Positions 26,288 to 56,070 of a stretch of 64,000 bases of DNA are shown here, piece by piece (the stretch's first letter is position 1; the number at the start of each line of letters is the position of its first letter). Source of the stretch: Roseococcus microcysteis (GTDB lineage: Bacteria; Pseudomonadota; Alphaproteobacteria; Acetobacterales; Acetobacteraceae). Location of the stretch: assembly GCF_014764365.1 (NCBI RefSeq), contig NZ_CP061718.1:310001-374000 (forward strand), given 5' to 3'. The notes under the pieces are model-generated. The model worked only from the letters and a program-made list of their open reading frames with translations, made no database searches and was not told where the DNA came from. Position numbers and translations under genes: made by a program.

Positions 26288-26337
26288 GCGCCTGATCCGC
26301 GGAGGCGGAATCGCCGGAGCGGTGAATCAGTCGCTCA
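26288..26337. repeat. hairpin element with TGA bulge, single copy
   Basis: This element has outer arms TGAT/ATCA and CCGC/GCGG, inner stem GGCG/CGCC with loop GAAT, GGA on both sides as an internal loop, and unpaired TGA before the last ATCA. It is nearly identical to the three tandem copies at 43421-43587. It sits beside a terminator in the 102-bp gap between convergent genes. Confidence 0.8.
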
Positions 26338-26345
26338 AAAACGTA

Positions 26346-26744
26346 TCAGGCCAGGACGAACATCGGCACCGGGGCGCCATCGCCCTCGGTCGCCTTGAAC
26401 TTCACCTTCACCTTCTGGCCGCACTTCAGCGCGTCCAGGTCGCACTCGATGATGTTGGTCAGCATGATCGGACCTTCATCGAGCTTCACATAGGCCACGC
26501 AGAACGGCTCCTTCCCGCGCGCGACGGACCAGGAATAGATCTCGCCCGTGCCCTTCGCCTCGACGAACTCGACATTGTTCGAGAGGGTGAAGGGCGAGAC
26601 ATGGCGCGGGTAGTGGAACAGCTTCCCCGTGTCCTTGCACTTGCCCAGGATCAGCTTGCCTTCGCGGCAGCCGTCGAAATAGGGCTTGTTGTCGGGGCTT
26701 TCCGCGGGCGCCTGGGGCGTGCGGTCAAAGGCTTGCGTTGCCAT
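26346..26744 (-). CDS. zinc-ribbon OB-fold acyl-CoA-associated protein (DUF35)
   Basis: A 132-residue DUF35-type protein with a rubredoxin-like zinc ribbon (Cys in YFDGCREGKLILGKC) and an OB fold (GEIYSWSVARG). These proteins bind a partner thiolase and shield or channel the acyl-CoA. It starts 5 nt after the thiolase stop, as expected for a complex partner. Confidence 0.88.
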   Translation of the reverse strand: MATQAFDRTPQAPAESPDNKPYFDGCREGKLILGKCKDTGKLFHYPRHVSPFTLSNNVEFVEAKGTGEIYSWSVARGKEPFCVAYVKLDEGPIMLTNIIECDLDALKCGQKVKVKFKATEGDGAPVPMFVLA

Positions 26745-26749
26745 GAGGA

Positions 26750-27916
26750 TCACTCCCTCTCCAGGATGACGGTGCCGCAGCCATGCCGCGTGCCGAGGTT
26801 GCCGCCCTTGCCGTTGGCGAGCACGAGGTCGGCGTTCGGAACCTGCACCTTCGGGTGGGCCTCGCCGCGCGCCTGGCGCACCGCCTCGATCACCTTGGTC
26901 ATGCCGCCGCGGTTGGACGGGTGGTTGTTGCAGAGCCCGCCGCCATCCGTGTTGAAGGGCAGCTTGCCCACGCCCGAGATCAGGCCGCCATCCTGCACGA
27001 ACTGGCCGCCCTTGCCCTTCTCGCAGAAGCCGAGGTCTTCCAGCTGCACCAGCACCGAGATGGTGAAGCTGTCATAGATCGAGGCGTATTTGATGTCGGA
27101 AGGCTTCACCTTGGCCTTCTCATAGGCCATCGGCCCCGACATCGCGGCGGCGGAGTAGGTCAGGTCGATGCCGCCGGAGTTCTGGTGCTTGTAGGCCTCG
27201 CCCCAGCCCTTCACGCCCACCTTGGGGCGGTTCAGCGACTTCGCGATCTCGGGCCGCGCGACGATCAGCGCGCCGCCGCCATCGGAAATCACGCAGCAGT
27301 CGAGGCGGTGCAGCGGGTCCGCCACCATGGGCGAGTTCACCACATCCTCGACCGTCACCACCTTGGGCAGCATGGCGTGCGGGTTGTACTGCGCATGGGT
27401 GGACGCCGCGACCTTGATCCAGGCGAGCTGTTCGCTGGTCGTGCCGAATTCGTACATGTGCCGCGTGGCGACCATGGCGTGCATGGTGGCGATGGTGCGG
27501 CCATAGGGCAGCTCGAAGCTCTCATCGGGCACGCCCGCGCCGAAGCTGCGCACGGCGGTGCCGGTCTGCATGCCCTCGGCGCGCGGACGGCCGGCCAGCG
27601 TGATCAGCGCGACATTGCACTTGCCCTGGATGATGGCCTCGACCGCATGGCCCACATGGATCACGTAGGAGGAGCCACCGCTCTCCGTCGTGTCATAGTG
27701 GCGCAGCTTGTTGAGGCCCATGTAGTCGATCATGGACAGGCCGCCCATGCCGGGCGCGTCGCCGGCGCAGAAATAGCCGTCGATGTCGGAGGCCTGCAGC
27801 CCCGCATCCTGCAGCGCGCCATAGGCGACTTCCGCATGGAGCTGGGCGGTGGACTTGGTCTCGGCCTTGCGCGTCGGGTGCTCGAAGGCACCGACGATGT
27901 AGGCGGGATTCTTCAT
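26750..27916 (-). CDS. thiolase-family protein (SCP2-type acetyl-CoA acetyltransferase)
   Basis: A 388-residue protein of the SCP-x/non-classical thiolase group. It starts MKNPAYIVGAFEHPTRK and shows GYFCAGDAPG, GGSSYVIHVGHAVEAI, CNNHPSNRGG and a C-terminal ARHGCGTVIL-like segment. The classical catalytic Cys near residue 90 is replaced by Ser in GGSS, as in other SCP2-like thiolases. Together with the OB-fold partner it probably acts on acyl-CoA side chains. Confidence 0.85.
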   Translation of the reverse strand: MKNPAYIVGAFEHPTRKAETKSTAQLHAEVAYGALQDAGLQASDIDGYFCAGDAPGMGGLSMIDYMGLNKLRHYDTTESGGSSYVIHVGHAVEAIIQGKCNVALITLAGRPRAEGMQTGTAVRSFGAGVPDESFELPYGRTIATMHAMVATRHMYEFGTTSEQLAWIKVAASTHAQYNPHAMLPKVVTVEDVVNSPMVADPLHRLDCCVISDGGGALIVARPEIAKSLNRPKVGVKGWGEAYKHQNSGGIDLTYSAAAMSGPMAYEKAKVKPSDIKYASIYDSFTISVLVQLEDLGFCEKGKGGQFVQDGGLISGVGKLPFNTDGGGLCNNHPSNRGGMTKVIEAVRQARGEAHPKVQVPNADLVLANGKGGNLGTRHGCGTVILERE

Positions 27917-27993
27917 GGGCGTTTGGCCCCCTTTCTGGCGTGTGGCGTCATCGCGGAATTCAACTCCCCCCGGGATCGGCGTCAGCATTCATG

Positions 27994-28012
27994 CCGCGAG
28001 CGATCATCGCGG
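27994..28012. other. weak hairpin in the thiolase upstream region
   Basis: CCGCGA and TCGCGG pair around a 7-nt loop in the 170-bp gap between the thiolase start and the Bug receptor stop. It could be a terminator for the receptor gene only if read on the plus strand, so no role is assigned. Confidence 0.25.
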
Positions 28013-28086
28013 GCAGAGGGTTGCCCCCACGCCGCGATCCGTCAACCGCATGGCCGATGAAATGGCCCGCTTTTCCGTTCGCGCCC

Positions 28087-29085
28087 TCAGCCCAGGCCGA
28101 GCCGCCGCGCGATGTCGCGGTAGAGGGTGATCTGCGCCAGCACATGCGCCCGGGCGCCCGCGCCATCGGTGATGATGGGGCGGCTGCCCTCGGCCTCGGT
28201 CTCGCGGACCCAGCGCGGGTCGGCGCCCACGCGCTGGATCACGCCCTCCCACTCCCGGGCCAGCTCATCGGGCAGGCCGGCGGGGGCGGCGATGGCGCTC
28301 CAGCCCGACAGATGCGCCATGTCGGGCAGCCCCGCCTCGGCGGTGCTGGGCACCTGGGGCAGCAGGGGCAGCCGCGCATTCCCCGCGATGGCGAGGGGCC
28401 GCACGCGCCGCGCGCGGATGGCCTCCATCATGTCGCCGAGGTTGCCGCCGAGAAAATCCGCCTCGCCCGCGAGCATGGCGGCCAGCGCCTCGCCCCCGCC
28501 GCGCGTCGCCACCGCCTCCGCCGCGTCAATCGGCAGGCCCGCGAGCACGAACATCTTGCGGATGCCAAGGTCGAGGATGGTGGCCGGCCCGCTGGTGGCG
28601 AAGCGCAGCGGCGGCTGGGCGGTGTCGTGCAGCCGGGCCAGCAGCGCGGGAAGGTCCGCGAAAGGCGCGCCCGCCGGCACGGCGATGACGAAGGGGTTGG
28701 CATCGAGCAGGCCGAGCCAGGTGAAGTCATCCAGCCCATAGGCCGTGCGCGGGTCGGTGGCGGGCAGGATGGCGGAGGAGGCGACGCGCGCCAGCAGCAG
28801 CGTCTCGCCGTCTGGCGCCGCGCGCGCCACGGCGGCCGTGCCCAGCGCGCCCGAGGCGCCGGGCATGTTCTCGACCCGCAGCGGCAAGGCGCCGGCGCCA
28901 CGATGGCGCACGGCGTGGCGGGCGAAGCGGCGGGCCGCGATGTCGGCGACACCCCCCTCCGAGAAGGGCGTGACGAGGCGCACCGAACCCGGTGTTGCCG
29001 TCTGGGCACGCGGAGACGACAAGACGGTGGCGCAACCAAGCGAAGCAGCGGCAGCGGTCAGCAAAATGCGGCGGGAATTTGGCAT
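28087..29085 (-). CDS. Bug-family periplasmic tripartite-tricarboxylate receptor
   Basis: A 332-residue TctC/Bug solute-binding protein. The signal peptide begins with a twin-arginine-like NSRRILLTAAAAS. The mature part shows RLVTPFSEGGVADIAAR, MPGASGALGTA and VPSTAEAGLP. It would bind an organic acid in the periplasm. No TctA/TctB membrane genes are adjacent, a common situation for Bug proteins. Confidence 0.88.
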   Translation of the reverse strand: MPNSRRILLTAAAASLGCATVLSSPRAQTATPGSVRLVTPFSEGGVADIAARRFARHAVRHRGAGALPLRVENMPGASGALGTAAVARAAPDGETLLLARVASSAILPATDPRTAYGLDDFTWLGLLDANPFVIAVPAGAPFADLPALLARLHDTAQPPLRFATSGPATILDLGIRKMFVLAGLPIDAAEAVATRGGGEALAAMLAGEADFLGGNLGDMMEAIRARRVRPLAIAGNARLPLLPQVPSTAEAGLPDMAHLSGWSAIAAPAGLPDELAREWEGVIQRVGADPRWVRETEAEGSRPIITDGAGARAHVLAQITLYRDIARRLGLG

Positions 29086-29244
29086 GAAATTACCTTCCTC
29101 CTGCATCAGATGGGGCAGTCCTGGCCTCAGGAAAACCACTTGGGTTGCCCTTTCGCGTCACAGCATGCTACGCGCTGTTTCATGTTGGACGGGCATCACC
29201 TTCCCACGGCAGCGCCGGATCGGCGTGCACCCTGGGGCCCCCGC

Positions 29245-29964
29245 ATGGCGTACAAGCGCTTTGCTTTCGCAATACTTGCCGGCTGCGTCCTCGCGGTCGG
29301 CTTTTCTGTCGCGCCAAGTAGTGCGCGAGCGGACCAGCCGCGCATGCGCGACGCCCCGCAGGAGCTGCTGCCGGCCTTCGACCCGCAGTTCCGGGGCGCC
29401 ACGCGCGGCCCCCGGGCCGCCTGCCTGCTGGCCACCCGCCGGGCCGAGGACATCCACGGCCTGCCCCGCGGGCTGCTGACCGCCATCGCCCTGTCGGAGA
29501 GCGGGCTGCACGCCCATGCGCTGTCCATCCGCGGCACCCCCCACTATCCGGCCGACCTCGATGAGGCGCGCCAACTGCTCCGCCAGGCGCGTGGCAGCGT
29601 CATGGCGGGCTGCATGCAGGTGAATGCGCGCGTCCATGCGCGCGGCGAGGACTGGCCGCTCGATCCCTTCACCGCCGCCGACTGGGCGGGCGGCGTGCTG
29701 GCGCGCTGGGCACGGGAGAACAACGGCTCCTGGACCGAGGCGCTGCGCCGCTGGCATGGCGCGAGCCCGGGCAACACGCGCAGCCTGGTCTGCCGCGTGC
29801 GCGCCAAGCTGGAGGTGACGAACCCCGGCAGCGACCTGTTCCAGAGCACGCGCTGCCCCGAGGCCACGGCCCAGCGTCTGCGCAATGACGCGGAGGCCCA
29901 TCTGCAGACCGCGGAGGCCCAGGCGGGCCGCCGCGGCGTCGCGAGCGCCGCCGCGGGTTTCTGA
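29245..29964 (+). CDS. lytic-transglycosylase-like exported protein
   Basis: A 239-residue protein with an N-terminal signal peptide and an SLT-like domain. The catalytic Glu is in LTAIALSESGLHAHAL near residue 90, and GCMQVNARVHARG follows. It would cleave peptidoglycan glycan strands in the periplasm. It is divergent from the Bug receptor across 159 bp that must hold both promoters; no operator was recognised there. Confidence 0.8.
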   Translation: MAYKRFAFAILAGCVLAVGFSVAPSSARADQPRMRDAPQELLPAFDPQFRGATRGPRAACLLATRRAEDIHGLPRGLLTAIALSESGLHAHALSIRGTPHYPADLDEARQLLRQARGSVMAGCMQVNARVHARGEDWPLDPFTAADWAGGVLARWARENNGSWTEALRRWHGASPGNTRSLVCRVRAKLEVTNPGSDLFQSTRCPEATAQRLRNDAEAHLQTAEAQAGRRGVASAAAGF

Positions 29965-29981
29965 CCCACGGCGGCCGCGCC

Positions 29982-31622
29982 CTACAGGCGGGAGACCTCG
30001 GTCTCCTTGCTGGTGATGAATTCGAGCAGCGCGGGCACGCCGTTGCGCGTCTGCTCGATGCCCCGCTGGATGGCGGGGATGATCTGCGCCACCTCCGTCA
30101 CCCGCTCGCCATAGCCGCCGAAGGCCCGCGCCATGGCGGCGTAGTCGCCGCTGATGTCGGTGGTGCGGTATTTCTCGGTGCTGAGGGCCATGATCTTCAG
30201 CTCGATCGCCATCGAGAAATTGTTCAGCAGGATGGACAGGATGGGGATGCGCTCACGCACCGCCGTCTCGAAATCCATCCCCGTGAAGCCGATGGCCGCA
30301 TCGCCCCAGACATTGATGCAGAGCTTGTCGGGGGCCGCGAGCTTGGCGCCCATGGCCAGCCCCAGCCCATAGCCGAGCTGCGTGGTCTTGCCCCAACCCA
30401 GGTAGGACAGCGGCGTGCGGCTGATCCAGAAGGGGGAAAGCTGGTCACGCGGGCTGCCCGCATCATGGGTGATGATGGTGTTGTCCACATCCACCGTGCG
30501 CCAGAGGTCGCGCAGCACGCGGTAGGGGTTGAGCGGGGCGTCGTTGGAATCCCGCTTGTGCGCCCATTGCGCGAGCCAGGGCGCGCGGATGGCCTCGATC
30601 TCCTGCTGCACCGGCGCGTGGTCGCGCTTTTCCTTCACGCGGCCGCGCAGCTCCTCCAGCAGCGCGTCCAGGATCAGCGCGGCATCGCCCACCAGGCCGA
30701 TGTCGCAGCGGATGTCCTTGTCGATATGGTCGGGGTCCAGCGTGGCGTGGATGAACTTCACGCCGCCAGGCTTCCGCGCCGGCATCTTCACGCCGAAATT
30801 CGTCTCGGTGAAGGAGCAGCCGATGCCGAAGATCACATCGGCATTGTCCAGGAAATGCCGCACCGGCTTGGGCATGGCGAGGCCGCTCGAGCCCAGCGCC
30901 AGCGCATGATCCTCGGGGAAGGAGGACTTCCCGCCCAGGCTGGACGTCACGGGAATGGCCAGCAGTTCCGCCAGCTCCCGCAGCTGCGGCCAGGCCTGCG
31001 CCCAATGCACGCCGGTGCCGGCATAGATCACGGGGCGGCGGGCATTGGCCAGCATCTCGGCGGCGCGGCGGATGTCCACCGGATCGGCGCCGGAGCGCGT
31101 GGCGACGACGGGCGTGTAGTCCAGCTCGCCGGGCAGTTCCTCGTTGAACATGTCGGTCGGGATTTCGACCAGCACGGGCCCGCCGCGCCCGTTCCGCAGC
31201 CGCGCGAAGGCGCGGCGCATGATGTTGGGGACCTCGGCCGCCGACATGATCGCCTCGGCGGATTTCGTCACGCCGCGCATCTGGATGGTGGAATTGTAGT
31301 TGGGCGGCACATGCGCGATGCGCCGCGGATAGCCCATGGGCATGACCAGCACCGGAATGCTCTCGCCGAAGCATTGCGCGATACCGCCATAGGCGTTCTC
31401 CGCCCCCGGCCCGTGCTGCATGCAGAAGGCGCCGAGCTTCTTGCCCGAGGTGACCCGGCTGATGGCATCCGCCATGTGCAGCCCGATGCGCTCCTGCCGG
31501 ACCATGACGGGGCGGATATCCACCGCCGCCGCGTGCTCGATGAGGTGGTTCACGGGGTAGCCGGTGAGGATTTCGATCCCCTCCCGCTTCATGATCTCCG
31601 CGATGGCGTCGCCGACCTTCAT
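29982..31622 (-). CDS. thiamine-diphosphate-dependent enzyme (acetolactate-synthase-like)
   Basis: A 546-residue ThDP enzyme with three domains. The activating Glu is in MVRQERIGLHMADA near residue 43. The ThDP motif is NVWGDAAIGFTGMDFETA...NN near residues 440-470. It differs enough from IlvB that the reaction (decarboxylase, oxalyl-CoA-like or carboligase) is left open. It is divergent from the small-protein/amidase pair. Confidence 0.85.
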   Translation of the reverse strand: MKVGDAIAEIMKREGIEILTGYPVNHLIEHAAAVDIRPVMVRQERIGLHMADAISRVTSGKKLGAFCMQHGPGAENAYGGIAQCFGESIPVLVMPMGYPRRIAHVPPNYNSTIQMRGVTKSAEAIMSAAEVPNIMRRAFARLRNGRGGPVLVEIPTDMFNEELPGELDYTPVVATRSGADPVDIRRAAEMLANARRPVIYAGTGVHWAQAWPQLRELAELLAIPVTSSLGGKSSFPEDHALALGSSGLAMPKPVRHFLDNADVIFGIGCSFTETNFGVKMPARKPGGVKFIHATLDPDHIDKDIRCDIGLVGDAALILDALLEELRGRVKEKRDHAPVQQEIEAIRAPWLAQWAHKRDSNDAPLNPYRVLRDLWRTVDVDNTIITHDAGSPRDQLSPFWISRTPLSYLGWGKTTQLGYGLGLAMGAKLAAPDKLCINVWGDAAIGFTGMDFETAVRERIPILSILLNNFSMAIELKIMALSTEKYRTTDISGDYAAMARAFGGYGERVTEVAQIIPAIQRGIEQTRNGVPALLEFITSKETEVSRL

Positions 31623-31708
31623 GGCGCTTCCTTTCCTTGCTGGTTGGGGGCCACGCTAGACCTCGCGCCGGAGCGGCCGCAAGCTGGTGGCCCGCACAGG
31701 AGACGCGC

Positions 31709-31915
31709 ATGGCCGAGTTGCACCCGCCCTTGAGCCCCGAGGAATTCAGCCTGGTGATGCGCCAGGTGGGCCTCGACCTCCCGCCCGCCGAGGCGGAGGC
31801 GCTGCGCCTGGCCCACCCCCATCTGCGCGTGCTGCTGGACCGGCTGCGCGCGCCCTCCAACCCCATGGCCGCCGAGCCTGCCTATACCTTCGCCGTGCCG
31901 GTGGCGCGCGCATGA
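31709..31915 (+). CDS. small GatC/AtzG-like amidase partner
   Basis: A 68-residue protein with a good AGGAG ribosome-binding site. The layout LSPEEFSLVMRQVGLDLP...LLDRLRAPSNP...EPAYTF resembles GatC and AtzG (DUF4089), small subunits that wrap around amidase-signature enzymes. It overlaps the amidase start as ATGA, which supports a two-subunit enzyme. The family call is from pattern only. Confidence 0.7.
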   Translation: MAELHPPLSPEEFSLVMRQVGLDLPPAEAEALRLAHPHLRVLLDRLRAPSNPMAAEPAYTFAVPVARA

Positions 31916-33285
31916 TCCCGACCATCGCCGAGGCCGCGCGCGAGATCGCGGCCAAGCGCCTTTCGCCCGTGGAACTCGCGCAGGCCTGCCTGGCGCGCGT
32001 GGAGGCCCACCAGCCCGCCCTGCACGCCTTCATCCTGCAAACGCCCGAACGTGCCCTGGACGATGCCCGCGCCGCCGAAGCGCGCCAGATGGCGGGCCGC
32101 CTGCGCGGGAAGCTCGACGGCATCCCCATCGGCCACAAGGACATCTACGAGACGGCCGGCATCCCCACCACTGGCCATTCCGCGCAGATGCAGGACCATG
32201 TGCCGGCGCAGGACGCCTTCACCGTGGCGCGCTGGCGCGAGGCGGGTGTCGTGCTCCTGGGCAAGCTCGCCACCCATGAATTCGCCTTTGGCGGCCCCAG
32301 CTTCGACCTGCCCTGGCCCCCCGCCCGCAACCCCTGGGACACGGAGCGCTTCACCGCCGGCAGCAGCAGCGGCACGGGTGCCGCGGTGGCGTCCGGCATG
32401 ATCCTGGGTGGCACGGGCTCGGACACGGGCGGGTCCATCCGGGGCCCGGCGGCGCTGTGCGGCATCGCCGGCATCAAGCCGAGCTACGGGCTGTGCTCAC
32501 GTTCGGGCGTGCTGCCGCTGGCGCACACGCTGGACACGACCGGGCCCATGGCCTGGACCAGCGAGGATTGCGCCCTGCTGCTGGAAGCCATGGCCGGCCA
32601 CGACCCCGCCGACCCCAGCAGCGCCAGCCACCCGCTGCCCAGCTTTGACGTGAAGCAGGACCTCCGCGCGCGGCGCGTGGGCGTGATCCGACATTTCCAC
32701 GAGAGCGACCACCGCGTCTCCGACGCCACGCTGCGCGGCATCGAGGAGAGCCTCGCCATCTTCCGCGCGCGGGGCATGGAGGTGGTGGAGGTCACCCTGC
32801 CGCCGCTCCAGGATTTCCACGCCGCGGGCTGGGTAACGCTGGCGGCCGAGGCCTGGGCCGTCCATGAGCCCTGGATGCGCGAAAAGCCCATGAAGTATGG
32901 CGAGGCCCTGCGCGCGCGCCTGGGCATGGGCGCGCTGCTGACGGCGGGCGACTACCTCCAGGCCCAGCGCAGGCGGCGCGAGATCATCGCGCGGAGCTTC
33001 GCCGCGACCGAGGGCGTGGATCTGCTGGTCACCGCCGCCGTGGTGGGCGAGGCGCCGAAGATCACGGAGGTGGGCAAGTTCGCCAGCATCGAGAAGCCGG
33101 GCTTCACCATCCCCTTCAACATCCTGGGCTGGCCGGCACTCTCCGTGTGCACGGGCTTCGGCGCCGGCGGGCTGCCGGTGGCGGTGCAGATCGTGGGCAA
33201 GCCCTGGCAGGATGGGCTGGTGCTGGCGGCCGGCCACGCGCTGGAGACCGAGAACGGCCACCGCGCGAAAAGACCCGCCTTGTAG
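31912..33285 (+). CDS. amidase-signature-family enzyme
   Basis: A 457-residue amidase. The Ser-cisSer-Lys triad regions are visible: Lys in IPIGHKDIYETAG, then TAGSSSGTGAAVASG and TGSDTGGSIRGPAALCGIAGIKPSYG. With its small GatC/AtzG-like partner it could act on a ureido or biuret-type compound like AtzE, or another amide. GatB is not adjacent, so tRNA amidation is unlikely. Confidence 0.92.
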   Translation: MIPTIAEAAREIAAKRLSPVELAQACLARVEAHQPALHAFILQTPERALDDARAAEARQMAGRLRGKLDGIPIGHKDIYETAGIPTTGHSAQMQDHVPAQDAFTVARWREAGVVLLGKLATHEFAFGGPSFDLPWPPARNPWDTERFTAGSSSGTGAAVASGMILGGTGSDTGGSIRGPAALCGIAGIKPSYGLCSRSGVLPLAHTLDTTGPMAWTSEDCALLLEAMAGHDPADPSSASHPLPSFDVKQDLRARRVGVIRHFHESDHRVSDATLRGIEESLAIFRARGMEVVEVTLPPLQDFHAAGWVTLAAEAWAVHEPWMREKPMKYGEALRARLGMGALLTAGDYLQAQRRRREIIARSFAATEGVDLLVTAAVVGEAPKITEVGKFASIEKPGFTIPFNILGWPALSVCTGFGAGGLPVAVQIVGKPWQDGLVLAAGHALETENGHRAKRPAL

Positions 33286-33288
33286 GCG

Positions 33289-35932
<2,644 letters not shown>

Positions 35933-36045
35933 GGGAGGCCGGGCGGTAGCGCGCCCCAAGCCCGCACGCAACCGGCGCCACAGCATGCCGGATGACCGCA
36001 CGCCCCCACCATGCCAGGATGGGCCGAACCGGAGAGACTCGCCCC

Positions 36046-37263: not shown

Positions 37264-37284
37264 CCCCGGCCCGGAGAATTCACC

Positions 37285-37716: not shown

Positions 37717-37721
37717 CGCAC

Positions 37722-43420: not shown

Positions 43421-43587
43421 ACCAGCGCCTGATCCGCGGAGGCGGAATCGCCGGAGCGGTGAATCAGTCGCTCAAGACCAGCGCCTGATCCGCGGAGGCG
43501 AAATCGCCGGAGCGGTGAATCAGTCGCTCAAGACCAGCGCCTGATCCGCGGAGGCGAAATCGCCGGAGCGGTGATCAGTCGCCCAAA
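43421..43587. repeat. three tandem 56-bp hairpin elements with TGA bulge
   Basis: Units begin at 43421, 43477 and 43533. Each contains TGAT/ATCA and CCGC/GCGG arms, GGCG/CGCC with a 4-nt loop (GAAT in unit 1, AAAT in units 2 and 3), GGA on both sides, and TGA before ATCA. Unit 3 has lost one A near its end. They fill the 3' side of a 450-bp stretch (43143-43592) with no gene between nrdA and the nuclease gene; the rest of that stretch shows only the nearby small hairpin. Confidence 0.9.
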
Positions 43588-43592
43588 CGACC

Positions 43593-44111: not shown

Positions 44112-44208
44112 CGAAACGGGGGGCGCGTGGGGCGGAAAATACGGCGGCGACGCATGGGGGGTCGTTAACCCGTGGGCAGGGAGGCTGGCAACCCGGAAGA
44201 TGGGAAAC

Positions 44209-45435: not shown

Positions 45436-45596
45436 CGCGTGCAGCCGGCGTTGGCGGCGCAGCAGCAGGGGGGCGTCGTCATCACCGGTCGGGCGCAGCC
45501 AGGTCCAGCTCTCGCGCCGCCAGCGGGGCGGCGTCCCGGAAGAAAGCAGGGGGTGGCGGGGCAGGCTGTCGCCGCACTCCGCCTCGAGGCGCAGGC

Positions 45597-46130: not shown

Positions 46131-46241
46131 CGCGCGGCATCATGCCACGGCGTGGGCGCCCTGTCCCACCCCCTCATCGCCGGGGTTTCGCAACCGCGAA
46201 GCCGCCCCATCTGTGCGGCCTTGCAAGGAAAGGGCAGGCGG

Positions 46242-46970: not shown

Positions 46971-46979
46971 GGCCTTTGC

Positions 46980-47621: not shown

Positions 47622-47631
47622 AGAGGGGCGC

Positions 47632-49170
47632 ATGAAGGGCGGCGCGCTGCGCCTGGTGCTCGGCGACCAGCTGAGCGAGGGGCTTTCCGCCCTGGAAGGC
47701 CTGGACGCGGCGCGCGACGTGGTGCTGATGCTGGAGGTGCGGGAGGAATGCACCTACGTCCCCCACCACCCGCAGAAGATCGTGCTGATCCTCTCCGCCA
47801 TGCGCCACTTCGCGGCCGCCCTGCGGGCGCGCGGCGTGCGGGTGGACTACGTGGCGCTGGACGACCCCGCCAACACCCATTCCTTCACGGGCGAGGTCGC
47901 CCGCGCCGTGGCCCGCCACAGGCCCGAGGGCGTCATCGCCACCCACCCCGGCGAATGGCGCGTGCTGGAGGCCATGCGCGGCTGGGAAGACGCCCTGGGC
48001 ATCCCCGTGGACATCCGCGACGACACCCGCTTCCTGGCCAGCCTCGATTTCTTCCGCCGCTGGGCCCATGGCAAGAAGTCGCTGCGGATGGAGTTCTTCT
48101 ACCGCGAGATGCGCCGTGCCACCGGCCTGTTGATGGAGGGTGACGCCCCGGCCGGCGGCGAATGGAACTTCGACGCCGAGAACCGCAAGCGCCTGCCGCG
48201 CGACGTCATCCCGCCACCGCCGAAGCGCTTCCCGCCCGACGCCATCACGCGCGAGGTCATGGACCTGGTCGGCCGCAAATTCCCCCAGCATTTCGGCGAA
48301 ATGGACGGCTTCGCCTGGCCCGTGACCGCCGAACAGGCGCGCGAGGCGCTGCACGCCTTCATCACCCAGCGCCTGCCCCGCTTCGGCGACTACCAGGACG
48401 CCATGGCCGAGGGGGAAACCACCCTCTTCCACGCGCTGATCAGCACCAGCCTGAACCTCGGTCTCCTCGACCCCCGCGCGGCCTGCGACGCGGCGGAAGC
48501 CGCCTGGCGGCGCGGCGACGCGCCGCTGAACGCCGTGGAGGGCTTCATCCGGCAGATCCTAGGCTGGCGGGAATATGTGCGCGGCCTCTACTGGCTGCGG
48601 ATGCCGGGCTACGCGAAGCTGAACGCGCTGGAAGCCCATCGCGCCCTGCCCGAATTCTACTGGACCGCGAAAAGCGGCATGCGCTGCATGGACGCCGCCA
48701 TCGGCCAGACGCGCGATATGGCCTATGCCCACCACATCCAGCGCCTGATGGTCACCGGCAATTTTTCTCTCTTGGCCGGCGTGGCACCCGCGGCGATCAA
48801 TGAATGGTATCTCGCCGTCTACGCCGATGCCTATGAATGGGTGGAGTTGCCCAACACGCATGGGATGGCCATCCATGCCGATGGCGGGGTGATGGCGTCC
48901 AAGCCCTATGCGGCCTCCGGTGCCTACATCAACCGCATGAGCGACCATTGCGGGCGCTGCCGCTTCGACGTGAAGGCCAGCACGGGCGAACGCGCCTGCC
49001 CCTTCAACTATCTCTACTGGGACTTCATCGCGCGCCACGAACGCCGCTTCGCCTCCAATCCGCGCATGTCCATGCCGCTCGCCAACCTGCGGAAGATGGA
49101 GGGGGCCAAGCTCAAGGCCATGCGGGCGCAGGCGAAGGCCTTCCTGGACCAGCACGCGCCCCTGCCTTGA
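47632..49170 (+). CDS. Fe-S bacterial cryptochrome/photolyase (PhrB/CryB type)
   Basis: A 512-residue FeS-BCP family protein. It starts with the family DASH-like N-domain (LRLVLGDQLSEGL). The FAD-domain shows ILGWREYVRGLYW, and the four Fe-S cysteines lie in GMRCMDAA, SDHCGRC and GERACPFNYLYW. Family members repair (6-4) photoproducts or sense light. No phytochrome or regulator is adjacent. Confidence 0.93.
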   Translation: MKGGALRLVLGDQLSEGLSALEGLDAARDVVLMLEVREECTYVPHHPQKIVLILSAMRHFAAALRARGVRVDYVALDDPANTHSFTGEVARAVARHRPEGVIATHPGEWRVLEAMRGWEDALGIPVDIRDDTRFLASLDFFRRWAHGKKSLRMEFFYREMRRATGLLMEGDAPAGGEWNFDAENRKRLPRDVIPPPPKRFPPDAITREVMDLVGRKFPQHFGEMDGFAWPVTAEQAREALHAFITQRLPRFGDYQDAMAEGETTLFHALISTSLNLGLLDPRAACDAAEAAWRRGDAPLNAVEGFIRQILGWREYVRGLYWLRMPGYAKLNALEAHRALPEFYWTAKSGMRCMDAAIGQTRDMAYAHHIQRLMVTGNFSLLAGVAPAAINEWYLAVYADAYEWVELPNTHGMAIHADGGVMASKPYAASGAYINRMSDHCGRCRFDVKASTGERACPFNYLYWDFIARHERRFASNPRMSMPLANLRKMEGAKLKAMRAQAKAFLDQHAPLP

Positions 49171-49220
49171 CCCGGCGGCCCGCGCGCGGAACCCTCACGC
49201 GGACAACCGGAGAATATCAG

Positions 49221-49991
49221 ATGCCCCGCGCCCTCGAATGGATGAAGCTCACCGCCGCCGAGGTGCAGCAGGCGGCGGCCGAGAACGCGCTGGTCATTGT
49301 GCCCGTGGCCTCGCTGGAACAGCACGGGCCGCATCTCTGCACCGGCACGGACATCATCCTGGGCGGGAATGTCGCGGTGGAGACGGCGAAGCGCCTCCAG
49401 GCCGGCGGCATGCCCGTGATCGTGACGCCCGTGGTCTGGACCGGCCTCGCCGAGCACCACATGGCCTTCGGCGGCACCGTGACGCTCGATTCCAGCGTCT
49501 TCCAGGCATTGCTGCACGGGGTGGTGGGCAGCGTGGCGCGCCACGGCTTCCAGCGCGTGATGCTGATGAACGGCCATGGCGGCAATGCCGAGGCCATCGG
49601 CACCGCCGCCACCGAACTGGCCGTGGAATTCGGCATCCGCGTCGCCGGCGCCACCTATTGGCACATGGTGCCCGAGGCCATCGCCCCCCTGCTCGAAGCC
49701 CAGCCCACCCTGATGCATGCCTGCGAGGCCGAGACTTCCATGGTCTGGCACCTGATGCCCGAGGGCGTGCGGCCCGAGCGCCTGCCCGAGGCGGTGGGCC
49801 CGAAATCCAGCCGCGTGGAAGGCCAGCCCCCCGGCCTGCTGATGCGCCGTTCCTTCCGCGAGATCAGCGAGACCGGCGTGGTGGGCGACGCCCGCACCGC
49901 CAGCGCCGAGAAGGGCGCGAAACTGCTCGATGCCATCGCCACGCGGGCGGCCGAGGTGCTGGCCAACCCGCGCCTCTGGGGCGAGGAATAG
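49221..49991 (+). CDS. creatininase-family amidohydrolase
   Basis: A 256-residue protein with the metal sites SLEQHGPHLCTGTD, GHGGNAEAIG and EAETSMVWHLMPE. The family includes creatininase and mycofactocin/FAPy hydrolases; the substrate here is unknown. It abuts the VOC gene at its stop. Confidence 0.88.
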   Translation: MPRALEWMKLTAAEVQQAAAENALVIVPVASLEQHGPHLCTGTDIILGGNVAVETAKRLQAGGMPVIVTPVVWTGLAEHHMAFGGTVTLDSSVFQALLHGVVGSVARHGFQRVMLMNGHGGNAEAIGTAATELAVEFGIRVAGATYWHMVPEAIAPLLEAQPTLMHACEAETSMVWHLMPEGVRPERLPEAVGPKSSRVEGQPPGLLMRRSFREISETGVVGDARTASAEKGAKLLDAIATRAAEVLANPRLWGEE

Positions 49992-50396
49992 ATGGCCGGC
50001 ACCATGGTGCCGCCCGCCATCGAAAGCCTCGGCTACACCATCCTCCCGTGCCGCGACCTGCCGGGGATGCGGGCCTTCTATCAGGACGTCCTGGCCCTTC
50101 CCCTGGCGGAGGACCGGGAGAACTGGGTCAGCTTCCGCCTGGGCGCCACCATGCTGACCCTGCGCCCGCGGGGCGCCTGGTCCGTCTGCGACGATGGGCC
50201 ATGGCCGCGCGGCTCGGCCGCCATCCAGCTGGCCTTCCAGGTGCCGCTGGCCGGCGTGGATGCGTGGCACCGCCTGTTGGAAGCCCGCGGCGTTCCCATC
50301 CTCCGGGCGCCCACGGACCTGCCGCAGTGGCGGCACCGGACGCTGTTCTTCCGTGACCCGGAGGACAACATCATCGAGATCTACGCCGAATACTGA
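49992..50396 (+). CDS. VOC (glyoxalase/dioxygenase) family protein
   Basis: A 134-residue single-fold VOC protein (MRAFYQDVLALPLAEDREN, LFFRDPEDNIIEIYAE, with the C-terminal Glu metal ligand). The enzymatic role is unclear. It starts at the base after the creatininase stop codon. Confidence 0.82.
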   Translation: MAGTMVPPAIESLGYTILPCRDLPGMRAFYQDVLALPLAEDRENWVSFRLGATMLTLRPRGAWSVCDDGPWPRGSAAIQLAFQVPLAGVDAWHRLLEARGVPILRAPTDLPQWRHRTLFFRDPEDNIIEIYAEY

Positions 50397-50557
50397 CGAA
50401 GACGGACGCGCGCGGAAAATCCCATGCGCCGAGTGGCTTGCCCAGGAACCCGCAAGCGTCGTCCCGGCCCGCCCGATCTTTCCGGAAGATTGATCCCGCG
50501 CAATGATTCCCGGCCGGCGGCGGGCTTGAATGCCCCCAGGAAATTGAGGAGATCGCC

Positions 50558-51256
50558 ATGCGCGCCGAGGACATCATGACGCGGGAGGTGGTGACCGTGC
50601 GCCCCGAGACTCCCGTGGGCGAACTGGCCCGCCTCTTCTCCGACCGCGGCATCTCCGGCGCGCCGGTGGTGGACGCCGAGGGCACCCTGCTCGGCGTCGT
50701 CACCGAGACGGACCTGATGCGCCGCATCGCCGCGCCCACCGACGCCAAGCCCGGCTGGCTGGGCGGGCTGTTCCATGACCCGGCCGATCTCGCCCGCCGC
50801 TACGCCCGCAGCCATGGCCGCACCGCGCAGGATGTCATGACGCCCGAGCCCATGACGCTCGGCCCCGACGTCCCCATCGCCCGCGTGGCCAAGCTGCTGG
50901 AGGACAAGGACATCCGCCGCGTGCCCATCGTGGCGGCCGGGCGGTTGCTCGGCGTGGTCAGCCGCGCGGACCTGCTGAAGGCCGTGCTGGACGCGCCCGC
51001 CCCCGAAGCCCCGCCCGAGGCCGCGGACGATGCCGCCATCCGCGCCGAACTCGCCCGGCGCCTGCGCCAGCAGCCCTGGGTGGACCGCCACTTCCTGCAT
51101 GCCAGCGTGAAGCACGGCCACGTCACCTTCTCGGGCTTCGCCCGCAGCCCCGCCGTGGTGCAGGGGCTGCGCGCGCTGGCCGAGGGGGTGCCGGGCGTGC
51201 GGGGGGTCAGCCTTGACCTCGCGCCGCCGCCGCCCTTCATGCTCGGCATGCCGTGA
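50558..51256 (+). CDS. CBS-pair / BON-domain protein, first copy
   Basis: A 232-residue soluble protein. Two CBS domains (MTREVVTVRPETP; VMTPEPMTLGPDVP) are followed by a C-terminal BON domain (about residues 155-225). CBS pairs bind adenine nucleotides and regulate partners; BON domains bind membranes or ligands. It is followed 19 nt later by a paralogue with the same layout. Confidence 0.85.
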   Translation: MRAEDIMTREVVTVRPETPVGELARLFSDRGISGAPVVDAEGTLLGVVTETDLMRRIAAPTDAKPGWLGGLFHDPADLARRYARSHGRTAQDVMTPEPMTLGPDVPIARVAKLLEDKDIRRVPIVAAGRLLGVVSRADLLKAVLDAPAPEAPPEAADDAAIRAELARRLRQQPWVDRHFLHASVKHGHVTFSGFARSPAVVQGLRALAEGVPGVRGVSLDLAPPPPFMLGMP

Positions 51257-51275
51257 TCCCGAAAGGTTGAGGACA

Positions 51276-51956
51276 ATGCAGGTCAAGGACGTCATGTCGC
51301 GCGGGGTGCTGACCGTCGCCCCCGAGACGCCCATCCAGGAGGTCGCCGCCCAGCTGTCGGAGGCCCATGTCTCCGGCGCCCCCGTGGTGGCGGCCGATGG
51401 TTCCGTGCTGGGCGTGGTCACGGAAAGCGACCTGGCGCACCGCCTGGCCGCCAAGGCCGCCCCCGCGCCCTCCTGGCTCAAGAGCCTGTTCTCGGCGGCG
51501 CCGGCGGAGGCGCTGGACTACGCCAAGACGCGCGGCCGCACGGCGCGCGACATCATGACCGCACCGCTGAAATCCGTCTCGGAGGAGACCAGCATCGAGG
51601 AAGCGGCGCAGATGCTCGAATCGCTGAACATCCGCCGCCTGCCGGTGCTGCGGGACGGGCGGCTGGTGGGCATGCTCAGCCGCGCCGACCTGCTGCGTGC
51701 GCTGCTGACGCCCGATTCGCCCGGCCCCGCCAGCGTGGATGACCGCGACCTGCGGGCCAGCATCATCCGCGCCTTGCACCACGCCTCCTGGTCGCATGCC
51801 TATTCGGTGCATTTCACCGTGCGCGCGGGCCATGTCACCTTCTACGGCTTCGCCGAGCCCACGGAGGTGCAGCGGGCGCTGCGCGTCCTGGCCGAGGGCG
51901 TGCCGGGGGTGAAGGGCGTGAGCTTCCCGGGCGAGCCCGCGCCGGCCAAGGAGTAG
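51276..51956 (+). CDS. CBS-pair / BON-domain protein, second copy
   Basis: A 226-residue paralogue of the previous gene (MQVKDVMSRGVLTVAPETP; DIMTAPLKSVSEETS; then BON VTFYGFAEPTEVQRAL). The two copies are diverged by many substitutions, so the duplication is old. They are probably co-transcribed. A hairpin element of the TGA-bulge family follows. Confidence 0.85.
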   Translation: MQVKDVMSRGVLTVAPETPIQEVAAQLSEAHVSGAPVVAADGSVLGVVTESDLAHRLAAKAAPAPSWLKSLFSAAPAEALDYAKTRGRTARDIMTAPLKSVSEETSIEEAAQMLESLNIRRLPVLRDGRLVGMLSRADLLRALLTPDSPGPASVDDRDLRASIIRALHHASWSHAYSVHFTVRAGHVTFYGFAEPTEVQRALRVLAEGVPGVKGVSFPGEPAPAKE

Positions 51957-51970
51957 CCCTGGCCGGGAGG

Positions 51971-52009
51971 GCGATTCACCGCGACGGCGAAGCCGCCATC
52001 GCGGATCGC
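51971..52009. repeat. hairpin element with TGA bulge, variant arms
   Basis: On the minus strand GCGAT/ATCGC, CCGC/GCGG and GGCG/CGCC arms, loop GCTT, and unpaired TGA before ATCGC. It sits between convergent CBS and racemase genes. The outer arms are changed relative to the 26.3 and 43.4 kb copies but remain paired. Confidence 0.8.
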
Positions 52010-52012
52010 ACT

Positions 52013-52738
52013 CTATCCGCCATAAAGCCGGCCCAGCCCCTCCGGATAGCCCGAAAGGGGGCGGGCGCGGGGGCTGCGCCGGGCAGGTGCCATGCCCGCG
52101 AGCGCGGCCGCCAGCCGCACGCCGGCCACCGTGCCATCCACGAGCGGCACCGAAACCTCCTTCTGGAGCGTGGCGGCGACGCCCGCCAGCGGCCCACCGG
52201 CGAGGATGACCACCTCCGCGCCATCCTCCTCCACGCTGGCCCGCACCAGCTCCAGCAGCAGGCCGCGGCGTTCCTCGGCCACCTGGCCCGGGTCGCCCGC
52301 GAAGGCCGGGCCCATGCGGAAGCCGGCGCAGCGCGCGGCGAGGCCCGAACGCTCCAGGCAATCCTCGAACATGGGCCGCAGGGCGGCGGTGAAGCTCACG
52401 ATGCCGAAGCGCCGCCCCAGCAGGCAGGCGGCGTGGAAGGCGGCCTCGCTGATGCCGATCACGGGCACGTCGAACATCTCCCGCGCCGCCTCCACGCCCG
52501 GATCGCCGAAGCAGGCCACCACGGCGGCGTCGAAATCGCCCCGGTGGGCCGCCAACCCGGCAAGGGTCGCCGGCCCGGCCACCAGCCAATCCGCGCGCGT
52601 CACGATCAGGGGAAGGCCGAAAGGCGCGGTGATGGTGGTGACCTCTGCGCCCGCCGGGGCGGCGCTTTCGGCGGCATCGGCGATGCGCCGCGTCACACCC
52701 TCGGTGGTGTTGCTGTTGATGACCAGGATGCGCGCCAC
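52013..52738 (-). CDS. Asp/Glu/hydantoin racemase-family protein, one-cysteine variant
   Basis: A 241-residue protein ([22 protein letters not shown] start 52738, AAGGAA ribosome-binding site). The first Cys is in VVACFGDPG, and the matching second position is Ala in [10 protein letters not shown]. Like the protein at 37722-38363 it lacks the second catalytic Cys of true racemases. It is divergent from the MCP gene. Confidence 0.82.
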
Positions 52739-52793
52739 GGGAAGTTCCTTGTGCTGTGGCCCGGAGGGGCGGAATGGAGATAGGCTACCTCCC

Positions 52794-54410
52794 ATGGCAC
52801 CGGACACCCAGGCCCCCATCCCACCGCAGGTCGTCCCGTCGCGGGAGGCGGCGCCGCGCGGCCGCTTCATGGGACGCATCGGCACGCGCGCGGCCGGCAT
52901 CGTGCTGCTGATCTTCGCGGTGCTGGTCTATCTCGCGGGCAGTTCGCTGTGGCTGCTGTCGCGCCAGGGCGAGATCATCGAGCGCATGGGCGTGCGCGAC
53001 CGCGTGGCGACCGAGGCGGTGGACGATTTCTCCAACGACGTCGCCGAATACGCCCAGGCCTTCGCCGCCGTCATGGCCGGTGCCCTGCCACCCGGCGTCA
53101 CCGCGGGCCGCATGGTCCGCAACGCGGAGGGCATCTCGGAATCCTTCGCCCTGCTGGATGAGCTGGTGGGCCACCGGCTGGACAGCGTGGTGATCGAGGC
53201 CGCGCGCGACATGGCCGCCCGCCTGCCGGACCTGTCGGAGCGCGTGCGCGCCGCCTTCGCCGCCCGCGCGCGCGACCAGTACGGGCCGCTGCAGGAGGAA
53301 TGGCTCGACATCGTGGTGGCCTTCAATGCCGTCTCGGCCCGGGCGCGCGAGATCAGCAAGGCCGATGCCGATGCCTCGCTGGCCACCGCGCGCGGAATCC
53401 AGGATTCCGGCCGCCGCGCCATCCTGATCGCGACCGGGGTGGGCGTGCTGGGCGTGCTTCTGGTCTGGGTGGTGCTGGTGCGGCTGACGGCCCAGCCGCT
53501 GGAACGCCTGGCCCGCGCCATGCAGGCGCTCGCCCGTGGCGATGCCGGCGTGCGCGTGCCCGAGGCGGCCCGTCCCGACCAGGTGGGCGAGATGGCCCGC
53601 GCCGTGGAGGTGTTCAAGCAGAACCTCGCCAACACCCAGCGCCTGATGGACCAGGCGCTGGAAGGCGCCCGCCGCACCGCCGTCGTCACGACGCAAGCCA
53701 GCCAGGCCATCGGCCAAGTGAGCGAGGGCGCCATGACCCAGCTGGCCGAACTGCGGCAGGTCTCCGACGCCCTGTCCCAGACCGCGGACGCCATCGCCGA
53801 GGTGGGCCGCGGCACCCAGCAGGCCCGCGACACGGCGGCCGAGGCCCGCGCCCTGTTGGCGGAAAACCTGAAGAAGGTCCGCCAACTCATTGAAACCGTG
53901 GACGCGGTGGGCGAGGACACGGAGCGCGTGACGCGCATCGCGGGCGTCATCGCCAAGATCGCGACCCAGACCAACATCCTCGCCATCAACGCCGCCATCG
54001 AGGCCGCCCGCGCGGGCGAGCACGGGCGGGGCCTCGCCGTCGTGGCCGAGGAGGTCCGCGCGCTGGCCGCCAATTCCGAGGCGCTCGCGCAGGAGATCGC
54101 GGATGTGGTCCTGCTCGCCGGCCGCCGCGCGCGCGAGGGCGCGGGCACGGCGGCCGCCGTGGGCGAGGCGATGGACGGGCTGGAGACGCTCTCCAGCGAG
54201 AGCGCCCGCCTCGCCGCCGGCATCGCCGTCGCCATGGAGGAGCAGCAGGCCACCATGGCCTCGCTCGACACCCGCGTGGCGACGCTCACGCGCATCGGCC
54301 AGTCCAACGCGACGGCCGCGGAGGAAATCACCGTGACCATGATCGATCTGTCCCGCCTCGCCAGCGAGTCCCGCGCCGCGGTGGAGAGCATGGCGGCCCG
54401 CCCGGCATGA
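52794..54410 (+). CDS. methyl-accepting chemotaxis protein
   Basis: A 538-residue MCP with two membrane helices (about residues 33-56 and 203-224) around a periplasmic helical sensor region of about 145 residues. A HAMP domain and a signalling domain follow, with the conserved hairpin tip region [32 protein letters not shown]. It overlaps the receiver-PP2C gene as ATGA and is likely the input of the adjacent CheA system. It has no recognised ligand domain. Confidence 0.93.
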
Positions 54411-55558
54411 GCGCCTCCATCCTGGTCGTGGACGACAGCAGCTTCAACCGGCTGCTGTTGAAGCGCCGCCTTGGGGAACTGGGCTATCCCGAGCCGGAGA
54501 TGGTCACGAACGGCCGCGAGGCGCTGGCGGCCATCGCGGCCCGCCGCTTCGACGTGATGCTGCTGGATCTCGAGATGCCCGAACTCGACGGCATCGGCGT
54601 GCTGGAGGCGCTGCACGGCCAGCCCCATGCGCCGCCCGTGATCGTCATCTCCGCGCAGACCGAGATGTCGGGCGTGATCCGCTGCATCGAGCTGGGCGCG
54701 GAGGACTACCTCCCGAAATCCTTCGACCCGCCCCTGCTGCGCGCGCGCCTCGCCGCCGTGCTGGAGAAGAAGCGCCTGCGGGACCTGGCCGATGAGCGGC
54801 TGGCGGCGCTGGAGGCGGAACTCGAATCCGCCCGCCGCGCGCAGCTCTCCCTGGTGCCGCGCGATTTCGCGGGCCTCTCGCGCGGTGCCATCACGGTCGC
54901 CGCGCATATGGAGCCGGCGCGCGAGGTGGGGGGCGACCTCTATGACATCCTGCCGCTCGGCGCGCATCACCTGATGTTCGTGGTGGCGGATGTGGCGGGG
55001 AAGGGGGCCTCGGCCGGCATGACGATGGCGCGGGCGTTTGGCCTGCTGCGCGCGGCGGCCCGGCTGGCGGATGCCGCGGGCACGCTGCCCGACCCCGGCG
55101 CGCTGCTGGCCACCGCCAATGAGGACCTCGCCGCCGACAATGAGGACATGACCTTCATCACCGCGGCCCTCGGCATCGTGGACACGCGCGATGGCACGGG
55201 CCGCATCGCGGTGGCGGGGCATGAGGCGCCGCTGCTGCTGGGCCCGGCCGGGGTGGAGACGCTCGGCGGCTATCGCATCCAGCCCGCGCTCGGCATCATC
55301 GAGGGGCTGGCCTATGCCAGCGCCCCCTTCGCCCTGGCCCCCGGCCAGGGGCTGCTGCTGCTGAGCGATGGCGTGACCGAGGCGCAGGACCATGCCGGCG
55401 CCCTCTTCGGCAAGGAGCGTGTGGTGGAGGCGCTGACCGGCCAGGTGGAACCGGCCCCCGCCATCGCCACCCTGCTGGCGGCCGTGGCGGGCTTCGTGGA
55501 CGGCGCGCCGGCCGCCGATGACGTGACCGTGCTGGCGCTGCGCCGCGCCGCAACCTGA
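54407..55558 (+). CDS. receiver domain / PP2C-type (SpoIIE/RsbU) phosphatase
   Basis: A 383-residue response regulator. The receiver (1-120) keeps the phospho-Asp D54 ([11 protein letters not shown]), an acidic pair DD and the Lys in LPKSF. A short coiled coil leads to a PP2C phosphatase with [27 protein letters not shown] and ADDVTVLAL, giving the metal Asp residues. It should dephosphorylate an STAS protein when activated by phosphorylation. Overlap with the MCP gene ties it to the chemosensory pathway. Confidence 0.94.
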
Positions 55559-55605
55559 CGCCGCCCGATGCGCTGTTTCCCCAGACACTGCAATGAGGGA
55601 AACGC

Positions 55606-55956
55606 GTGCAGATCCAGGTGAACACGGACGACAACATCTCCGGCCGCGAAACGCTGGTGGCCCGGGTGCAGGAAGATGTGGAGCAGGGCCTGGCCCGCTT
55701 CGCCCAGCAGGTGACGCGCATCGAGGTGCATCTGAGCGACGAGAACGCCGCCAAGCCCGGCGACAATGACAAGCGCTGCCTGATGGAGGCGCGGCCCTCC
55801 GGCCAGAAGCCCGTGGCCGTGACGCATATGGCGGCCACGCTGCCCGAGGCCTGGGCTGGCGCCATCAAGAAGCTGCGCGCGCTGCTGGACACGCAGCTGG
55901 GCAAGCTGAACGAGAAAAAGGGCGCGGAATCCATCCGGGACAATGAGTTGAGGTAG
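55606..55956 (+). CDS. HPF/RaiA-type ribosome hibernation factor, short form
   Basis: A 116-residue protein with the sigma-54 modulation/RaiA fold (RIEVHLSDENA, DKRCLMEARPSGQKPVAV, AWAGAIKKLRALLDTQLGKL). It would bind the 30S subunit in stationary phase. The start is GTG 55606. It lies after the receiver-PP2C gene and may be co-transcribed with it, followed by two hairpin elements. Confidence 0.8.
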   Translation: MQIQVNTDDNISGRETLVARVQEDVEQGLARFAQQVTRIEVHLSDENAAKPGDNDKRCLMEARPSGQKPVAVTHMAATLPEAWAGAIKKLRALLDTQLGKLNEKKGAESIRDNELR

Positions 55957-55970
55957 AAAATTAAGGCGCC

Positions 55971-56070
55971 GCGTCCGATCGTCGTCGGCGCCAGCCGACG
56001 GCGTGAATCGGCCGCGCGGAAAGCGTCCGATCGTCGCCGGCGCCAGCCGGCGGCGTGAATCGGCCGCGCA
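55971..56070. repeat. two tandem 52-bp hairpin elements with a compensatory change
   Basis: Copy A (55975-56011) and copy B (56027-56063) each form CCGAT/ATCGG outer arms, a 10-bp inner stem with a GCCA loop, and an unpaired TGA before ATCGG. Between copies T55985-A55998 becomes C56037-G56050, one exact paired change. They separate the convergent HPF and CheA genes. Confidence 0.9.

Follow-up and report, generated by a model that had tools for sequence, protein, structure and literature searches.

Among the repetitive extragenic palindromes (REPs) of Escherichia coli, those of group 2 (y, z1, and z2) are substrates of TnpA_REP, a single-strand HUH enzyme; in the accessible part of the account, the 5' GTAG is called crucial, a regular stem with the bulge filled abolished activity, and the lower stem was contacted specifically at T11 and G32 (PMC8266576). 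By our own count, T11 is the T of a GAT. The accessible parts of a second source (Di Nocera 2013, PMC3733652) describe GTAG REPs, which are associated with genes for REP-associated tyrosine transposases (RAYTs) and often provide the TAG stops of genes, and CGTC REPs, which are mainly alphaproteobacterial, have no dedicated transposase, and are stated there to be missing in Acetobacteraceae. Here, we describe a family of bulged hairpins in Roseococcus microcysteis, a member of the Acetobacteraceae, which was first noticed in a stretch of 64,000 nucleotides (the window, positions 310001 to 374000 of the single 4,208,010-bp contig). These elements are probably REP-like nonautonomous mobile hairpins. 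A literature search at the level of titles and beginnings of abstracts, with most subscription journals outside its reach, found no account of this hairpin family.

The window carries seven units of the family at four loci, listed here with the evidence for each.

26288 to 26334, plus strand: single element of the GGA/GGA-stem subfamily, with arms GCG-C-CTGAT and ATCAG-T-CGC and a TGA bulge (sequence, fold, and model match).
43425 to 43471, plus strand: unit 1 of a head-to-tail array of three, identical in sequence to the 26288 element (sequence, fold, and model match).
43481 to 43527, plus strand: unit 2 of the same array, after a 9-nt linker (sequence and model match, with no separate fold).
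43537 to 43582, plus strand: unit 3 of the same array, with the bulge TG, one A missing (sequence, fold, and model match).
51967 to 52013, minus strand: single element with arms GAG-T-GCGAT and ATCGC-C-CTC (sequence, strict motif scan, and fold).
55971 to 56015, plus strand: unit 1 of an array of two, with a fully paired 10-bp inner stem and arms CCGAT and ATCGG (sequence, fold, and model match).
56023 to 56067, plus strand: unit 2 of the same array, after a 7-nt linker (sequence, fold, and model match).

The sequence-only reading of the window had proposed one architecture for all seven units, and the same frame was indeed found in every fold, as RNA for six of the seven units (43481 was omitted) and as DNA for three. 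From 5' to 3', the frame consists of 3 bp, a pyrimidine-pyrimidine mismatch (present in 7/7 window units), 5 bp ending in GAT/ATC, an inner stem of 10 to 11 positions, and a 4-nt loop, with TGA unpaired on the 3' side just inside GAT/ATC. The initial reading had missed the mismatch and the 3 bp outside it, one bulge proved to be TG rather than TGA, and the 52-kb element, although present as described, lies on the minus strand, which had been overlooked. Folded as RNA in the element direction, the 52-kb and 56-kb elements pair along the whole inner stem; in the 26288 element and the 43-kb units, a GGA/GGA internal loop separates two 4-bp halves of it. Between the two units at 56 kb, a compensated change in this stem replaces T-A of the first with C-G in the second. 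A strict motif scan recovered 6/7 units and missed the one at 43537 to 43582, which is one A short. Rfam gave no matches at gathering score in the window. Beside the 26288 element, we noticed by eye a G+C-rich inverted repeat at 26249 to 26278 followed by a T-run on the minus strand, which is likely an ordinary terminator between convergent genes.

The hairpin family was confirmed as real and is larger than first reported. A covariance model built from the seven window units, a search that the sequence-only reading had suggested, matched at least 148 sites in the genome when the best 150 of 9,457 candidates were scored, and the pattern GATC-N18..32-GTGAATC had 144 genome matches compared with 0 for the reversed control. 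In a set of 37 diverse 47-nt copies, 92.7% of the cells were paired, and there were 98 two-sided changes compared with 28.1 ± 5.4 in shuffles, a number reached in 0/500 shuffles; when this set was slid, the paired cells dropped to 28 to 49% in every case. Because these 37 rows had been picked by a pairing-aware scan, covariation was retested on copies picked by sequence alone, where all five outer pairs formed in 105 of the 126 unique copies, compared with a shuffled mean of 45. Among paralogous copies, 2,051 two-sided changes kept the pair, versus 358 under a mutation null (991 pairs, which are nonindependent). The proposed covariation around a fixed bulge is strongly supported. The accompanying claim that the copies are not simple duplicates stood only in part: the arms covary, but copies do spread and duplicate, as some at unlinked loci are identical and others form tandem arrays.

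A structural scan of 97 stretches around the covariance-model matches, 652,128 bp in total, accepted at least 170 copies, of which 150 are distinct, grouped in 117 arrays. With a typical length of 47 nt, this copy number, and 112/117 arrays intergenic by our own gene calls, the elements agree with the general description of REPs as palindromes of 20 to 50 nt that occur in high copy number and mostly between genes. Because a copy needed at least 5/6 letters of TGAATC to be accepted and scored higher for pairing, the scan itself accounts for part of the shares given next: TGAATC was intact in 155/170 copies, GAT was present in 161/170, and the pyrimidine-pyrimidine mismatch was present in 146/170; the bulge letters were T in 170, G in 168, and A in 168 copies; and GANTC, the CcrM site, occurred in 161/170 copies, with GAC/GTC variants preserving both the pair and the site. 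Most arrays were single elements (82), and 34 of the 35 multiunit arrays had all units on one strand, with gaps between units of 6 to 11 nt in 49/53 cases. Three inner-stem positions (5 to 7) were Watson-Crick paired in 65/167 copies, GGA/GGA in 30, and GAA/GGA in 10. These opposed triplets, found in 40/167 copies, constitute a recurring mismatch motif rather than random mismatches and are compatible with G.A pairing in a presumed geometry. The three-unit array had no blastn match in plasmids, and a search of viral contigs with one 35-mer pattern found none.

The placement of the elements was determined relative to genes from our own codon-usage caller, without curated annotation. Of the 117 arrays, 65 lay between convergent and 40 between codirectional genes, 7 were in divergent spacers, and 5 were in coding DNA; in the window, three of the four loci lie between convergent genes, as had been noted at the outset. 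Fifty-one of 116 same-strand arrays start exactly at the final base of a co-oriented gene's stop codon, and that stop was TAG in 48/51 such arrays, with TAG used overall in 142 of 632 sampled genes. In the window, the 51967-to-52013 element abuts such a stop, its first base (52013) being the last base of the TAG of a minus-strand Asp/Glu racemase-like gene; the remaining three loci do not. TAG preceded 59/116 founding copies versus 7/52 later tandem copies (P = 3 × 10^-6), and it stood before 11/65 founding copies located away from stops versus a background of 1.2% (P = 3 × 10^-10). Because it is enriched at founding copies and also away from stops, we take TAG to mark the founding copy itself, beyond serving as the stop codon of a neighbor. 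The base preceding TAG is not fixed, and the G of TAG is paired. Across six further genomes from five genera of the family, 14/24 arrays start with a G directly after TA, and 7/24 were exactly on a called TAG stop, as judged with R. microcysteis codon usage and with no co-oriented called stop in reach for 12/24. No usable skew was available for a replication-strand bias of the elements, and the genes between close arrays included no transposase among the 10 annotated of 29 listed. A role in ending transcription, one of the functions initially offered, failed in the form of an intrinsic terminator: five or more T residues within 10 nt past the hairpin were found in 0/170 copies on the element strand and in 4/170 on the other.

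The arrays turn over between sister species. We compared R. microcysteis (G000; other G numbers denote compared genomes, and L numbers denote fetched loci) with G010, which is 91.2% identical to it across the compared DNA. A two-way comparison of 400 kb gave 23 shared sites, 7 sites found only in G000, and 16 found only in G010, with 3/33 G000 arrays and 2/41 G010 arrays unplaceable; two of the 23 shared sites (2894534 and 2925659) are probably chance matches in coding DNA. When G000 arrays were mapped to 800 kb of G010, 33 were present and 11 were absent of 44 after removal of two chance matches (35 and 11 of 46 before). Copy number changed at shared sites, for example, between 1 and 2 or between 2 and 4. 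At three sites (G010 807956, G010 943593, and G000 3076476), the empty allele has TGA or TAA and the filled allele has TAG plus the element; at two (G000 2948978 and G010 801781), TAG is present in both alleles; and G010 990056 was read as an insertion adjoining a TGA stop. Several further empty sites aligned too poorly to read. At the G010 ortholog of G000:C1:2948978, we observed approximately 600 bp of other DNA directly after the TAG, where G000 has the element. Elements were 95.5% identical between the species and their flanks were 94.3 and 93.6% identical (13 sites, two doubtful ones included). Fourteen copies had a one-to-one ortholog of the same length; among their changed pairs, 8 were kept, 8 were broken, and 1 had never been paired. 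The 8 kept pairs compare with 6.5 in a neutral simulation (P = 0.33). An earlier indication of neutral pairing decay after insertion (8 kept and 13 broken) was withdrawn, as that set held two chance coding matches.

Among the described systems, the group-2 REPs of E. coli are the most similar in anatomy. In the nrdA-nrdB spacer of E. coli, the REPs read GTAG-GCCTGAT-AA-GACGC-loop-GCGTC-GC-ATCAGGC. Both families have a long imperfect palindrome with an irregularity directly inside GAT/ATC and a 5' tag ending in TAG, as far as the accessible part of the E. coli account goes (PMC8266576), and in both the position that precedes GAT shows the same covariation (CTGAT/ATCAG and CGGAT/ATCCG). The irregular zone just above a GAT/ATC lower stem, which defines group 2, is thus found here, with the scan-biased GAT count given above. 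However, the Roseococcus irregularity is a one-sided TGA bulge whereas that of E. coli is an AA/GC mismatch, the Roseococcus hairpin has an extra 3 bp and a pyrimidine-pyrimidine mismatch below the foot, and its arrays are head-to-tail, in contrast to the inverted bacterial interspersed mosaic elements (BIMEs) of E. coli, which are defined by alternating orientation. Inverted heterodimers were seen at two loci of another genome, G490. Members of the GTAG superfamily resemble the Roseococcus elements in supplying stop codons with their TAG and in sitting downstream of genes, but their GTAG is conserved and unpaired, and the TGA-bulge architecture does not appear in the accessible parts of their description (PMC3733652); in R. 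microcysteis, the TAG precedes only about half of the founding copies. Likewise, the CGTC REPs share the alphaproteobacterial range and the lack of a dedicated transposase, and many Roseococcus copies have GCGTC at the 5' arm. However, CGTC is mostly paired here rather than an unpaired tag, the inner stem has 10 to 11 positions versus 8 to 9 bp, there is no CCA tail, and units are in tandem rather than in head-to-head dimers, according to the same partial source (PMC3733652). Only two weak look-alikes of classical CGTC REPs were found across the examined DNA.

The elements are widespread in the genus and patchy in the family. All 21 Roseococcus genomes had matches, with 1 to at least 102 copies; the lowest count (1) came from a 74%-complete genome, and near-complete genomes had as few as 4 and 6. 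With a second model, for which the best 30 candidates per genome were scored, 89/200 genomes and 51/102 genera of the family had matches at E ≤ 1e-4, while the remaining Alphaproteobacteria gave 1 or 2 weak matches in each of 6/285 genomes. The models and looser patterns were applied within Alphaproteobacteria; outside the class, a 37-letter pattern alone was applied, and in all named genomes it found 15 loci, which fall in Roseococcus thiosulfatophilus, R. suduntuyensis, Roseococcus sp. SDR, Roseomonas rosulenta, and metagenome-assembled genomes of Acetobacteraceae or Rhodospirillales. For GATC...GTGAATC outside Roseococcus, the reversed control is a poor null (G049 had 62 matches versus 1, yet those listed were mostly without a hairpin by eye), and we therefore limit claims beyond the family to genomes in which hairpins were actually read. 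In G490, from another family, a looser pattern had 91 matches versus 0 for the control, and all 13 among the matches listed were hairpins; at two loci, the elements had the same frame (outer 3 bp, pyrimidine-pyrimidine mismatch, GAT, TGA bulge, and ATC) and a 5' yTAG, with different stems. At loci L362 and L406 of this genome, two stem types of bulged hairpin form inverted pairs approximately 15 nt apart, a BIME-like arrangement. G294, from a third family, had six such hairpins among 8 matches. Single or double copies were found in G249, G362, and G475 by the scan and in G278 by eye, none of which passed a stricter filter, and G250 had one weak copy. Of the 38 pattern matches in G259, none of four fetched loci passed the stricter filter, and the pattern match in G337 lacked the frame.

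To find a mobilizer, both PF01797 (Pfam Y1_Tnp) and NCBIfam NF047646 were applied to 60 relatives, and NF047646 alone was used in the family-wide search and in a search of 20 chosen genomes. No RAYT was over the cutoff in any of the 21 Roseococcus genomes, and Y1_Tnp was found in one of them, G016, which also had a subthreshold RAYT match and only 6 copies of the repeat. In the 20 chosen genomes from 11 families, in only part of which hairpins were read, no RAYT was over the cutoff; one match of 14 bits (E = 0.1) was obtained. Within the family, 40/200 genomes had a RAYT at E ≤ 0.001, 35 of them over the cutoff, and a RAYT occurred together with at least 23 counted repeat copies in four genomes (G075, G077, G125, and G126). 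At the fetched loci of RAYT or Y1 genes, the models for the repeat gave no significant match, and a scan match with a score of 31 beside the broken RAYT of G024 (L276) was not confirmed by them. PF01797 missed the RAYTs of G022 and G024 that NF047646 detects. At L275 (G022:C69:3928-7362), an intact RAYT lies between inverted repeats of 31 to 32 nt starting with CGTAG or GTAG (arms at 1292 to 1323, 2009 to 2039, and 2567 to 2598), which represents a REP/RAYT system (REPtron) with a different REP family in the same bacterial family.

Of the three functions that the sequence-only reading had offered (transcription end, mRNA 3' protection, and a REP-type mobile hairpin), the last fits best because of the variable copy number, the empty sites, and the anatomy close to that of E. 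coli REPs. Anatomy, copy number, tag, placement, and turnover were established here, and mobilization in trans by a strand-specific enzyme is our inference. The outcomes that had been named as fatal to the original proposal (no more copies, unpaired arms, and random placement) were all looked for, and none refuted it. Several observations nevertheless weigh against mobility of the REP kind. Profile searches of the R. microcysteis genome, which had been suggested at the outset, gave no Y1_Tnp or RAYT match, and thus detected no cognate TnpA_REP/RAYT gene, which in a REPtron often lies near the REP. In the family, RAYTs were unrelated to the repeat (20/89 repeat-positive versus 20/111 repeat-negative genomes; P = 0.48), and 21 fetched RAYT loci, with approximately 1.5 kb per side, had no significant model match (best E value, 0.16). 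The tag is TAG with a paired G, whereas that of E. coli is an unpaired GTAG, and in the accessible part of the E. coli work, selection by SELEX (systematic evolution of ligands by exponential enrichment) favored the bulge bases only moderately (PMC8266576), which makes the bulge analogy imperfect. No target duplication was evident at the aligned empty sites, where the exact boundary was not fixed. Finally, the 8 broken pairs at orthologous sites were fewer than the 14.4 expected from neutral simulation (P = 0.01), a deficit that could reflect host-level selection or detection bias, since detection itself needs pairing. Given the paired G of the tag, the head-to-tail arrays, and the defining enzyme not found here, we call the elements REP-like and not REPs in the strict sense.

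The deficit of broken pairs would also be expected if the hairpins were host-functional 3' elements, kept by selection at each gene as barriers to 3' exonucleases, pause sites for terminating ribosomes, or transcription ends. The excess of convergent over divergent positions and the many arrays that abut a stop codon favor this explanation as well, and according to the accessible part of one account (PMC12306157), ribosomes stall at E. coli REPs that lie within 15 nt of a stop codon. However, there is no T-tract, counts in one genus range from 1 to at least 102 copies, 23/46 comparable sites in the 400-kb block occur in one species only (the two doubtful shared sites counted), and the elements are barely more conserved than their flanks; we consider this explanation unlikely. 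Still less likely, it appears, is a REP family of the classical RAYT-driven type in which Roseococcus has lost the RAYT or the RAYT has escaped detection. The anatomy near that of group-2 REPs and the four family genomes that combine a RAYT with many repeat copies argue for it, while the absence of a RAYT over the cutoff from the genus and from the 20 chosen genomes, the lack of a significant repeat match at any fetched RAYT locus, and the missing family-wide association argue against it.

Intergenic inverted repeats with a GANTC in one arm are also known from Caulobacter. The CIR elements of Chen and Shapiro (2003) reportedly carry a CcrM site in one arm of an inverted repeat, exceed 100 bp in length, and are present in up to 21 copies. 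By this description, with which alone the Roseococcus elements were compared, the hairpin might be a CcrM-linked DNA element that shows GANTC at the bulge and acts in replication or cell cycle control. The frequency of the site and its preservation in GAC/GTC variants are in line with this, as is the characterization of CIR, in the accessible part of a review, as CcrM-associated and strictly intergenic. However, the GANTC count is partly built in by the 5/6 TGAATC rule, the same letters are required for the ATC arm and the TGA bulge, and the models and looser patterns cover Alphaproteobacteria only, and we regard a CcrM-linked role as improbable. Chance hairpins in a genome of 71% G+C, multiplied by simple tandem duplication, can be dismissed: hairpins are common in such DNA and tandem copies do exist, but the 144 matches compared with 0 in the control and the covariation already refute this explanation.

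If the elements are REP-like mobile hairpins, they would be processed in trans by a strand-specific single-stranded DNA endonuclease-transposase, whose substrate would be the hairpin in single-stranded form, including the tag and the bulge, in the way that TnpA_REP uses the REPs of E. coli. An insertion at a stop codon would be tolerated because the stop is restored by the TAG that the element brings or by the TGA inside it, and tandem units would arise by later duplication of the element with its linker. The enzyme would not be a RAYT recognizable in this genome and may have been lost, be very divergent, or be of another kind. A broader possibility, which we put forward tentatively and hold to be less likely than not to be correct in full, is an alphaproteobacterial superfamily of bulged hairpins, with a TAG tag, a GAT/TGA-bulge/ATC foot, and any inner stem, spread by a non-RAYT single-strand DNA enzyme that shares the substrate logic of enterobacterial TnpA_REP.

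REPs are abundant bacterial repeats whose spread is credited to RAYT transposases, and here a high-copy REP-like family occurs in a genus in which no RAYT is over the cutoff; across the bacterial family, the repeat is patchy and shows no link to RAYTs. Sister species with many and with few copies, whose empty sites are mapped, provide a clean set in which to hunt for another mobilizer, and the same set can test whether the GAT/ATC foot and bulge are a general recognition code. In addition, because so many elements start on a stop codon, any influence on the termination of translation can be tested directly.

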